This document shows positions 156 through 11,485 of a stretch of DNA of 64,000 nt, piece by piece. Made by a program: the position numbers and the translations under genes. The stretch comes from Candidatus Gastranaerophilales bacterium (GTDB lineage: Bacteria > Cyanobacteriota > Vampirovibrionia > Gastranaerophilales > Gastranaerophilaceae): NCBI GenBank assembly GCA_944323045.1, contig CALUQX010000002.1:1-64000 (forward strand), read 5' to 3'. Every line of letters begins with the position of its first letter. Positions within the stretch are counted from its first letter, which is position 1. Below the pieces are notes generated by a model. It was not told the origin of the DNA. It was given only the letters and a program-made list of their open reading frames with translations, and did no database searches.

Positions 156-197
156 ACCATAAAAGTGATAGGGATTTATCCCTATCACTTTTATGGT
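156..197. repeat. 42-nt perfect palindrome over the tRNA-Val CCA end
   Basis: Arms 156-175 and 178-197 pair perfectly (20 bp) around a TT centre. The right arm contains the ACCA 3' terminus of tRNA-Val(GAC), so the primary transcript would place the mature tRNA end inside a long hairpin. No T-tract follows on the minus strand, which argues against a plain Rho-independent terminator. A palindrome of the same geometry sits at the other tRNA-Val (10154-10195). Confidence 0.9.
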
Positions 198-269
198 GGG
201 CGATACGTGACTCGAACACGTGACCCCCACAACGTCAATGTGGTGCGCTACCAACTGCGCTAATCGCCC
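194..269 (-). tRNA. tRNA-Val(GAC)
   Basis: The minus strand folds as a cloverleaf: 7-bp acceptor GGGCGAT/ATCGCCC, GCGC D-stem, anticodon stem CCACA/TGTGG with loop TTGACGT (anticodon GAC), and T-loop TTCGAGT. The CCA tail is encoded. The 3' end lies inside the palindrome at 156-197. Confidence 0.93.
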
Positions 270-8792: not shown

Positions 8793-9086
8793 TTAAAAAA
8801 TAATATCTTGATATCCGGTAAGCACTCTTTGAATGTATAAAATATTATCCTTTATAAAGTATATAATTTGATAATGTTCTGCAACAATAGCACATCTGAC
8901 ATCTCTAATTATAAGTTTTGATTTTATAAAGCCACTTTTAGGAAACATCGCAAGTGTATCAAATTTCTTTTCAAATATATCAATCATTTCGATAGCTTTA
9001 GAAATATTGTCCTGTGCTATAAAATCAAAAATATTTTGCAAATCTTTTTCGGCGGATGGAGTAACAATTATATCAAGTTTATGCAT
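8793..9086 (-). CDS. parE: ParE/RelE-family toxin
   Basis: A 97-residue protein of the RelE/ParE fold: VTPSAEKDLQNIFDFIAQDN at the start, the central FPKSGF, and the closing YQIIYFIKDNILYIQRVLTGYQD typical of ParE. Toxins of this group poison gyrase (ParE) or cut mRNA (RelE); the antitoxin partner favours ParE. It overlaps the antitoxin gene by 8 bases and follows it in transcription. It lies close to the tRNA-Val repeat region, a common place for acquired modules. Confidence 0.85.
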   Translation of the reverse strand: MHKLDIIVTPSAEKDLQNIFDFIAQDNISKAIEMIDIFEKKFDTLAMFPKSGFIKSKLIIRDVRCAIVAEHYQIIYFIKDNILYIQRVLTGYQDIIF

Positions 9087-9324
9087 ATCGTTTTCTTAAA
9101 TCTTTAAATACTTCTTGGCTTTTTCTGCCTTTACCGGATTCCATATCTTGCCAACCTTCTTCAATTTCAGCATTTAACTGATTAATACGTTCTAATGAAA
9201 TATTATTATCCACAAATGCGAATTGAACCGCAAACATAATAGCTTCATCCATTGTACTAAAAATACCTTCTGCAACCTTTGCTTTTAAAATATTTTCAAT
9301 GTTATGCGGCAAATAAATATCCAT
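9079..9324 (-). CDS. parD: ParD-like antitoxin
   Basis: An 81-residue protein immediately upstream of the ParE-like toxin. The N-terminal half (IYLPHNIENILKAKVAEGIFSTMDEAIMFAVQ) fits the ParD ribbon-helix-helix pattern. The acidic C-terminal half (EIEEGWQDMESGKGRK) would be the flexible toxin-binding part. AAGGG lies before the ATG. It likely represses its own operon. Confidence 0.8.
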   Translation of the reverse strand: MDIYLPHNIENILKAKVAEGIFSTMDEAIMFAVQFAFVDNNISLERINQLNAEIEEGWQDMESGKGRKSQEVFKDLRKRYA

Positions 9325-9683
9325 GTCTAACCCTTTTATTTAAAAACCTATAATCTAATTATAACAGAGATTGCAGAATATTTCAACTTATATAAAAACA
9401 TTTTACTCTCAGATAAGGAGTGATAAAAAGAAATTATTAAAACACAATATTGTCTTTAAAAATTATTTTTTTGACTAAAGTAAAATTGCATTTTAGAAAA
9501 GTCATAAATTGGCTGCAATTATTTTCTGTCACTTCTTTAGCGGGCTCCATTATGCAAGAGCGGACTAGTTTGCCCCGCAAGAAACCAGGAAGATTCATCG
9601 TTGCTAAATTTAGTAACTACTTTTCACTGATTACCATTCACAGTTCACCGATTACAATATATAAAAGTGGACTTCGTCCACCC
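9325..9683. other. Gene-poor stretch between ParDE and the tandem repeats
   Basis: No convincing gene. An open frame at 9450-9740 starts with TTG, lacks a ribosome site and runs into the tandem repeat. A short hairpin GTGGACTTCGTCCAC lies at about 9667-9681. The DNA is likely debris from repeat or element activity next to tRNA-Val. Confidence 0.5.
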
Positions 9684-10151
9684 GTCCGAAAATCCGCTCG
9701 AACTTCATTTGAAAATTCTCGCTATCAAAACATACCATAAAAAGAGACCAGATAAACTAATAATTCTATTTTTGCGTTAGAAGACTGTCTTGGATTTTCT
9801 TTGCGCTCGGATAGTTTCGCCTTAAAGCTTACAGCTTAGTCGGCTCAATATCCTCGCTTACCGGACTGGGTTCACTTCGTTCACACGGCGTCTGTCCGAA
9901 AATCCGCTCGAACTTCATTTGAAAATTCTCGCTATCAAAACATACCATAAAAAGAGACCAGATAAACTAATAATTCTATTTTTGCGTTAGAAGACTGTCT
10001 TGGATTTTCTTTGCGCTCGGATAGTTTCGCCTTAAAGCTTACAGCTTAGTCGGCTCAATATCCTCGCTTACCGGACTGGGTTCACTTCGTTCACACGGCG
10101 TCCGTCCGAAAATCCGCTCGAACTTCATTTGAAAATTCTCGCTATCAAAAC
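9684..10151. repeat. 210-bp tandem repeat (2.2 units) leading into tRNA-Val
   Basis: Unit starts lie at 9684, 9894 and 10104, exactly 210 bp apart. Units 1 and 2 appear identical apart from their last base. The third follows the unit for 48 bases, then turns into the hairpin and 3' end of the functional tRNA-Val(TAC). Each unit carries a decayed tRNA-hairpin (about 9731-9773 and 9941-9983) and the tRNA T-arm/acceptor fragment GCGTTAGAAGACT (9774-9786, 9984-9996), nearly in register with the true tRNA at 10198-10210. The array therefore derives from the tRNA 3' region. It is not a CRISPR array and codes for nothing convincing. Confidence 0.9.
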
Positions 10152-10153
10152 TG

Positions 10154-10195
10154 ACCACAAAAATAGACCAGATTTATCTGGTCTATTTTTGTGGT
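10154..10195. repeat. 42-nt perfect palindrome over the tRNA-Val(TAC) CCA end
   Basis: Arms 10154-10173 and 10176-10195 are 20-bp perfect complements around TT, and the right arm includes the tRNA ACCA terminus. It has the same length, centre and placement as the palindrome at 156-197, but a different arm sequence apart from the ACCA/TGGT ends. Confidence 0.9.
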
Positions 10196-10267
10196 GGGCG
10201 TTAGAAGACTCGAACTTCTGACCCTCTCCTTGTAAGGGAGACGCTCTACCAACTGAGCTAAACGCCC
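10192..10267 (-). tRNA. tRNA-Val(TAC)
   Basis: The minus strand folds with acceptor GGGCGTT/AACGCCC, D-stem GCTC/GAGC, anticodon stem TCTCC/GGAGA with loop CTTACAA (anticodon TAC) and T-arm AGAAG-TTCGAGT-CTTCT. CCA is encoded. Confidence 0.95.
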
Positions 10268-10498: not shown

Positions 10499-11485
10499 AT
10501 GGTTGCAAATATTAAATTACAAAATGATGATACCTCTTTATTCAAAGATTTATCCTTTAACAGCTTTTCCGTTGATGACACTCCTGAACCTATCGAACTT
10601 GAAGAAGATTTTGATGAACCTAAAACCTTTAACTCAATATTCCATGACGATGACATACTACAAATGTATCTGAAAGATATCGGCAAAGTTAAACTTCTGT
10701 CTGCTAATGAAGAAAAAATTCTCGGTAAACAAATTAAAGAAGGCGGAAATTCTTATGATGCAGAAATGGCTAAAAGAAAACTAATTCAGGCTAATCTGCG
10801 ACTCGTCGTAAGTATTGCAAAAAAATACGTCGGACAAGGTGTTCTCTTTATGGATCTTGTTCAGGAAGGCTCGCTGGGACTCATAAAAGCCGCTGAAAGA
10901 TTTGACTATTCCAAAAATTTCAGATTCTCAACATACGCGACATGGTGGATTAAACAAACAATTATCCGCTCAATATCAAATTGCTCAAGAACTATAAGAA
11001 TCCCTGTTCATATGGCTGATAAAATAAGAAAATACAAACGCACATACACAACCCTATCCTTTGAACTCGGGCGTGAACCTACTGATTTGGAAATTGCTCA
11101 AAAAATGGAAATCACCCCCAGAAAACTACTCTCTATAAAAAAATCTATCCTTAAAGAACCAATCAGTCTCGAAACTCCGGTTACCGATGATTTGAATGTA
11201 GGTGACTATATTGAAGATAAAAAATACCGTTCTCCAGAAATCCAAACAGGCAACAATGCGCTGAAAGGCAGTATTAATGACCTTCTTAAAGGTCTTGAAG
11301 AACGAGAAAAACAAATTATAAATAACCGTTTTGGAATTAATGGAGAAGTTCCTAAAACTCTTGAACAACTCGGGGCAATTATGGGCTACTCAAAAGAACG
11401 CATCAGGCAGCTTGAAGAATCTGCATTAAATAAAATACGCCTGCAAAAAGAATTACGGCACTTTAAAGATTTTATAGAAGATTGA
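10499..11485 (+). CDS. rpoD: RNA polymerase sigma-70 factor, group 1/2 (RpoD/SigA-like)
   Basis: A 328-residue factor. Region 1.2 is [22 protein letters not shown] (about 50-70). Region 2 is [16 protein letters not shown]...[41 protein letters not shown] (about 100-165). Region 3 follows, and region 4 contains [13 protein letters not shown]...[20 protein letters not shown]. Promoter-contact residues of primary sigma factors are present, but the extended region 1.1 is absent and the tail is short. It could be the main sigma factor or a cyanobacterial-style group 2 copy. GAGG precedes the ATG. Confidence 0.9.

Follow-up and report, generated by a model that had tools for sequence, protein, structure and literature searches.

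Behind the tyrT gene of E. coli lie 178-bp repeats (rtT RNA) in 3.14 copies, each of which includes 19 bp of the tRNA-Tyr 3′ end. To our knowledge, repeats that contain the 3′ end of their own tRNA have so far been regarded as an oddity confined to individual tRNA genes. In Salmonella, rtT RNA varies in size and a 175-bp VNTR is described (PMC2658671). Integrative elements that target tRNA genes include a class using a T-loop sub-site (Williams 2002, as cited in PMC2647930), and tycheposons are likewise tRNA-targeted (PMC10872708). Two other systems involve short sequences: the attC sites of integrons, which are 57-142 nt long, show little sequence conservation and act as a folded single strand (PMC2727003), and the very small mobile repeats of cyanobacteria (Elhai 2008, as cited in PMC4390886). 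Our literature search found no paper on repeats in Gastranaerophilales.

Here we describe an array behind the tRNA-Val(TAC) gene in a stretch of 64,000 nucleotides (the window, G000:C2:1-64000) from a Candidatus Gastranaerophilales bacterium, whose genome G000 is a 1.98-Mb draft of 44 contigs. We argue that this array is probably the tRNA-anchored landing site of a folded mobile element, formed by insertion into a T-loop, which also duplicated the tRNA 3′ end, and then by tandem duplication.

The array behind tRNA-Val(TAC) and its state in relatives

An earlier note on this DNA, made from the sequence alone, had proposed a tandem array of 210-bp units. The array is real: Tandem Repeats Finder (TRF) places it at 9682-10173, with a period of 210, 2.3 copies and 97% match. 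As the note had also seen, the two full units differ by a single base (209 of 210 bases alike; C/T in CCGTCC/CTGTCC) and the third copy merges into the functional tRNA: its first 50 bases are identical to the full units and are followed by the tRNA terminator and the tRNA-Val(TAC) gene. The features are listed below from the tRNA outwards; those given without a method were placed from the sequence.

10192..10267, minus strand: functional tRNA-Val(TAC) (ARAGORN; Rfam RF00005, 74.3 bits)
10154..10195, minus strand: the tRNA's intrinsic terminator hairpin, ACCACAAAAATAGACCAGAT...ATCTGGTCTATTTTTGTGGT, which overlaps its CCA end (near-perfect inverted repeat, minus-strand self-match)
10119..10146, minus strand: spacer hairpin X with T-stem 5′ half, GATAGCGAGAA...GAAGTTCG, proximal copy
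9997..10118, minus strand: T1 copy nearest the tRNA, AGCGGATTTTCGG...AAATCCAAGAC, of a dispersed family (covariance-model match 9997-10117)
9984..9996, minus strand: tRNA-Val 3′ fragment AGTCTTCTAACGC, directly after T1 (13-nt exact match to the tRNA)
9944..9983, minus strand: decayed terminator copy (aligned by eye to 10154-10195)
9909..9936, minus strand: spacer hairpin X, second copy (identical to 10119-10146)
9787..9908, minus strand: T1, second copy, one base different (covariance-model match 9787-9907)
9774..9786, minus strand: tRNA-Val 3′ fragment, second copy
9734..9773, minus strand: decayed terminator, second copy
9699..9726, minus strand: spacer hairpin X, third copy
9667..9698, minus strand: truncated third T1 at the distal end of the array, GTGGACTTCGTCCACCCGTCCGAAAATCCGCT then CGAACTTC, with no distal tRNA fragment left

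Each unit consists of a copy of the tRNA-Val 3′ end with a decayed terminator and of an element, T1, lodged in the T-loop of that copy. On the tRNA strand the junction reads GAAGACT, T1, CGAACTTC, the uninterrupted counterpart in the tRNA being GAAGACTCGAACTTC, and the two flanks of T1, once joined, restore an uninterrupted T-loop. T1 lies between GCGTTAGAAGACT, a 13-nt exact piece of the tRNA-Val 3′ part that is present in each unit, and CGAACTTC; the tRNA itself reads GCGTTAGAAGACTCGAACTTC across that point, so T1 breaks the 3′ copy exactly in the T-loop. The remainder of the unit is the tRNA 3′ fragment, the decayed terminator and a spacer hairpin leading into the T-stem 5′ half and TTCG. 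The tRNA fragment and the decayed hairpin in register that had been noted in every unit are both there, as the 13-nt piece and the terminator copy. The tRNA fragments in the window have decayed and the outermost one is lost, and the layout of an intact tRNA with a displaced 3′ fragment is present.

The view that the array is built from the tRNA-Val 3′ region stands only in part. Copies of the 3′ end are present, but more than half of the 210-bp unit is T1, a dispersed element found at dozens of other loci, and only about 90 bp is tRNA-derived or spacer. The unit contains no gene. The layout of spacer hairpin X recurs behind many other tRNAs, and a complement of the tRNA's own T-stem lies upstream of T1 at 10 of 43 sites (0.3 in shuffles).

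Elsewhere in the window, two overlapping minus-strand ORFs occupy 8793-9324. The downstream ORF matches the ParE toxin (PF05016) and the other (81 aa) has no Pfam match; the two are likely a parDE-type toxin-antitoxin pair. A similar pair adjoins the RAYT gene of G003 (L219).

The locus can be recognised in relatives by the position of tRNA-Val beside a sigma-factor gene (10499-11485 in the window). All 76 bases of the tRNA itself are conserved in G002-G005, and the 73 bases that align in G001 are identical as well. Within the genus, the orthologous locus of G004 carries a single T1 unit, in which the tRNA fragment is clean and the terminator separate, G001 has a three-copy array of a different insert, T2, with no fragments between, and no insert is found in G002, G003 and G005. 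In G014, which belongs to another genus, the same point is occupied by an unrelated insert. Further tRNA-Val loci of the order hold T1, a third insert type (T3) or other inserts and are likewise broken at the T-loop. The note had named the presence of the same array in all relatives as a possible refutation of its reading; the comparison does not refute it, as the array is not universal. Relatives differ in array presence, insert type and copy number; with one unit, another insert or nothing at the same locus, the array is not an inherited fixture.

Boundaries, spread and fold of T1

Copies of T1 aligned with their flanks end sharply, and the flanks outside are unrelated. The element is mostly 111-122 bp long and runs from GTCTTGGATTT to AAATCCGCT on the plus strand, or GCGGATTTGCG...GCAAATCCAAGAC on the tRNA strand, where the window copies measure 121-122 bp. 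A search of the genome for the unit, as the earlier note had suggested, shows that its T1 part is dispersed: a covariance model finds at least 58 copies in G000. This may be an undercount, as a T1 copy lies no more than a few hundred bases from an end of contigs C12, C13, C14, C18, C28 and C34. Of 60 genomes from the order, 35 contain T1 by this model; they come almost entirely from one family, with two from another, and outside G000 they usually hold 1-5 copies.

In a set of 40 T1 loci, drawn mainly from low-copy genomes, 21 lie downstream of an intact tRNA and are followed on the right by the 3′ end of that tRNA; another 11 show a TTCR left flank. The orientation is fixed: 43 sites with TTCR on the left have T1 in one orientation and none in the reverse. 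In low-copy genomes T1 is mostly found in tRNA T-loops; in high-copy genomes, most copies lie in 8-bp tandem repeats or in other repeats, not in T-loops. T1 and T2 can also adjoin at one T-loop.

Some of these other sites have a regular form. Arrays of 8-bp repeats (L040, L055, L087, L088, L092 and others), of the types AAGACGTT, AATCACTT, AGTGCCTT and ATTCCCTT, contain T1 in both orientations but always at one phase of the repeat. At L030, L034, L041 and L046, T1 is inside another dispersed repeat, GATTGCTTCGCATTCGCTCGCAATGACG, at CATTCGC/TCGCAATG. T2 is nested in the apical loop of T1 (GGACTCGCTTTGCT / CCGTCC) at L044, L048, L056 and L042, and T1 lies in T2 at L037. Hairpin loops as a general target of T1 were rejected: with the flanks joined, the junction falls in such a loop at 18 of 52 non-tRNA sites, which is not above the level of about 37% at random positions. 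No exact match to the ends of T1 or T2 was found in viral sequences (IMG/VR).

T1 has one common fold, a branched hairpin of 32 pairs, 18 of which show two-sided compensatory changes among 25 diverse copies, as in none of 500 shuffles. Its covariation score is 0.420, compared to 0.147 in shuffles, and slid structures collapse. G-U pairs make up 1.5% of the pairs in T1 compared to 7.7% in tRNA stems of the same genomes, a scarcity which hints that the fold matters as DNA and which may partly reflect the relatedness of the copies.

The conserved structure could instead mark a functional RNA or tRNA-processing unit under selection, like the rtT RNA repeats behind E. coli tyrT, and recurrence at Leu(GAG), Asp, Lys(TTT) and Arg(TCT) in several genera would suit such a role. 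We consider this improbable: presence varies within the genus at the same tRNA, a terminator separates the tRNA from T1, most G000 copies are elsewhere, and G-U pairs are rare for an RNA. In an Rfam search, no RNA family other than tRNA exceeded a gathering score.

Comparison between genera points to movement of T1. At the same tRNA in different genera, T1 copies can be 97-98% identical, whereas the terminator and spacer before T1 are 41-70% identical. For example, behind tRNA-Asp of two genera T1 is 98% identical and the preceding 60 nt are 62% identical. Near-identical elements on diverged scaffolds suggest that T1 moves or is exchanged without its scaffold, and both its boundaries and these identities lead us to infer that it is mobile. 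The nearest neighbour of a T1 copy (n = 40) is at the same tRNA in another genome in 17 cases, in the same genome in 5 and elsewhere in 18; with neighbours this mixed, neither vertical inheritance nor movement alone explains the data.

One break point behind many tRNAs

The phenomenon is not specific to tRNA-Val(TAC): the same break is found behind many tRNAs. We scanned for exact matches of at least 12 nt to a tRNA's own 3′ 26 nt within 600 bp downstream. Such a copy lies behind 9 of the 35 tRNAs of G000, compared to 3 of 1148 in a control with the ends of other tRNAs, which excludes chance. The copies begin 15-20 nt from the 3′ end, that is, in the T-loop. tRNA-Val(GAC) of G000 has a shorter copy, and at Ile(GAT) the other half alone is kept. 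The same census gives 8 of 30 in G004, of the same genus, and 0 in G011. In G034, from a different family within the order, 2 of 32 tRNAs are real cases when neighbouring intact tRNAs are not counted.

An uninterrupted copy of the T-arm was found behind none of about 190 tRNAs examined. The broken copy is preceded either by CAAGAC (T1, T2) or by T3, and all three inserts use one common junction, whose position varies by one or two bases. Besides stacking of inserts, there is tandem duplication of units: tandem units occur at Val(TAC), Ser(GCT), Leu(TAG) and Arg(TCT) in G000 and at Met, Gln and Arg(CCG) in G004. Their identities are high at Met(CAT) (178/178), Leu(TAG) (179/181) and Ser(GCT) (172/184) and lowest at Arg (143/243), where the two inserts differ.

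The window itself holds a second case: downstream of tRNA-Val(GAC) (194-269, minus strand), positions 1-193 contain a T3 insert (CGTACGGCTCGTGCTCCTCGCCTACGAT) and an 11-nt tRNA fragment, GAGTCACGTAT. A further insert type (TACGTGTGTAGCAC) is seen in a two-unit array of the tRNA-Pro(TGG) 3′ end, with units 179 bp apart (L194:3508 and L194:3687). A tRNA-like sequence missed by ARAGORN, GCTGTAGCTCAGCGGGATAAAGC...CGCGTTCGAATCGCGGCAGGCGTA, lies between a tRNA-Arg array and a 205-aa integrase (L027 ~2130-2210 and L359:2690-3307).

This recurrence bears on two simple explanations. That the tRNA 3′ region simply slipped or was duplicated in tandem, without any special element, agrees with the near-identity of neighbouring units and with the imperfect register of the decayed copies. 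It leaves unexplained both the dispersed element in the T-loop and the same break behind many tRNAs; we regard it as refuted as a full account, highly improbable on its own, and keep it as the last step. An assembly artefact might be suspected for short repeats in a 44-contig draft, and the number of units in the array may be miscounted, but the same architecture recurs behind many tRNAs and in many genomes that were assembled separately, which makes an artefact scarcely credible.

Mechanism and comparison with known systems

In the course of events that we favour for the window, T1, which is one of three or more structured types of insert, would first have entered the T-loop of a copy of the tRNA-Val 3′ end, between TTCG and A-RTC and in its fixed orientation; the junction can be read directly, and an enzyme presumably acted there. 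The insertion would have been accompanied by a local duplication of the tRNA 3′ end and terminator, which would have kept the working tRNA whole and placed the broken copy downstream. Insertion and duplication were probably one event, because uninterrupted copies are absent, and the copying was probably local, because the terminators are host-like; it takes more than insertion alone to explain a duplicated tRNA end. The downstream copy, free of selection, then decayed, and this decay is visible in the array.

The 210-bp unit was next duplicated, by unequal recombination or slippage between direct repeats. That this tandem duplication is recent follows from the 209/210 identity, from presence and absence in relatives and from similar two-unit arrays elsewhere. 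Recent duplication combined with decay of the tRNA-like parts, as the earlier note had read it, thus agrees with the unit identity and the degraded terminator copies. T1 in the T-loop likewise suits the note's suggestion of a small element linked with the end of the tRNA, or of insertion at its 3′ end. Finally, it may be the folded DNA of T1 that is recognised, and a site-specific recombinase might do this. Either a recombinase or another transposition mechanism could have moved it, and we do not choose between them.

The note had also proposed a search for a recombinase linked to the unit, and this part gave little. Among the candidates checked in G000, no recombinase or transposase is tied to T1. 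Small tyrosine recombinases of 180-216 aa are present; the link to T1 is weak, since they lie near T-loop fragments only on contig C24 and, beyond the tRNA-Arg array, on C17. On C24, a tRNA-Met 3′ fragment with T1 and a 182-aa integrase gene are 1.7 kb apart, in a region that also contains HipA and modification-type genes. No integrase gene is inside the 210-bp unit, and C24 is the sole possible larger relative.

Other movers were considered and rejected. G000 has no match to PF01548 (DEDD transposase), against an IS110 or bridge-RNA element, and none to PF00078 (reverse transcriptase), against a retroelement. RAYT/Y1 was set aside on two grounds: the T1-rich genomes G001 and G004 have no Y1 match, and the RAYT of G000 is flanked by GTAG repeats, not by T1. 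This gene is a solo Y1 transposase (L220, G000:C6:46373-46732) between GTAG-tagged palindromes, GTAGGGTGCGTCG...CGACGCACC.

Most units have no ORF; two carry one. A 1128-bp unit at tRNA-Asp of G006 encodes as its sole ORF a 250-aa Clp_N protein with hydrophobic stretches (L127:3337-4089), and a 791-bp unit has a 73-aa ORF. Both would fit remnants of tRNA-targeted islands, in which a tyrosine integrase inserted the island at the T-loop, the island's 3′ end restored the tRNA, and deletion of the interior left the ends as the 210-bp unit. The gene neighbourhood on C24 fits as well, and so does G004, where an intact tRNA with its own terminator is followed by a distal 3′ fragment with its own terminator. 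Nevertheless, T1 has boundaries of its own and also lies outside tRNAs, unrelated inserts occupy the same point, and the junction overlaps differ (TTCGARTC versus CAAGACARTC), with at most 1-2 bases shared. Among the tested integrase loci, only C24 has a detached tRNA fragment nearby, and we find this origin quite unlikely.

The two cargo units also bring to mind integron-like cassettes, with the T-loop as platform and usually gene-free units that end in a folded single-stranded site (T1, T2 or T3). The structured site at the end of each unit, the conserved ends, the variable compensating stems, the few G-U pairs and the fixed orientation all speak for them. Against them, the six PF00589 proteins of G000 that we scanned for the integron integrase IntI are all below the TIGR02249 cut-off, most units are gene-free, and each unit retains the 3′ end and terminator of its own tRNA, which means that whole units do not move between tRNAs. 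Integron-like cassettes are therefore conceivable but unlikely. Somewhat more broadly, and only tentatively, a hitherto undescribed recombination system may exist in Gastranaerophilales, with the universal T-loop of tRNA genes as its platform for attachment and with folded T1, T2 and T3 as the sites that attach; it would build arrays of small and mostly empty cassettes behind tRNA genes, cross genera and be able to take up genes.

The landing site that we propose for the array can be set beside the systems described at the outset. The tyrT/rtT repeats and the array both lie in tandem behind a tRNA, their units are similar in length and each includes the 3′ end of that tRNA, and copy number differs, between strains there and between relatives here. 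The tyrT repeats are known for a single tRNA and are not known to have a dispersed T-loop element, whereas many tRNAs are involved here and the insert family is genome-wide; no sequence match to the Rfam rtT family was found.

As in tRNA-targeted elements and tycheposons, the landing is in the 3′ part of the tRNA, the tRNA stays whole and a 3′ fragment lies at the far end; here, however, units are about 170-260 bp long and mostly gene-free, with no integrase inside and no single shared overlap sequence. Integron cassettes and attC sites share with T1 a folded site at the unit end, a similar length, conserved ends and freely varying compensating stems, and differ in having an integron integrase, whereas here the platform is the tRNA T-loop, most units are gene-free and the own tRNA end is kept. 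REP/REPIN and the very small cyanobacterial repeats are also short, gene-free, folded and of high copy number in some genomes, but T1 is longer, has no GTAG tag and prefers tRNA T-loops.

The system thus partly resembles tyrT repeats, tRNA-targeted islands and attC cassettes, and departs from the last two in what defines them. The pattern is systematic here: many tRNAs share a single break point and a single orientation, three folded inserts are interchangeable, and relatives represent the state before and after, which makes the origin of tRNA-3′-end repeats testable. It suggests a gene-free mobile element on one sequence that nearly all tRNA genes share, and the comparison points to T1 as an element not described before, for which the universal T-loop of tRNAs serves as landing site.
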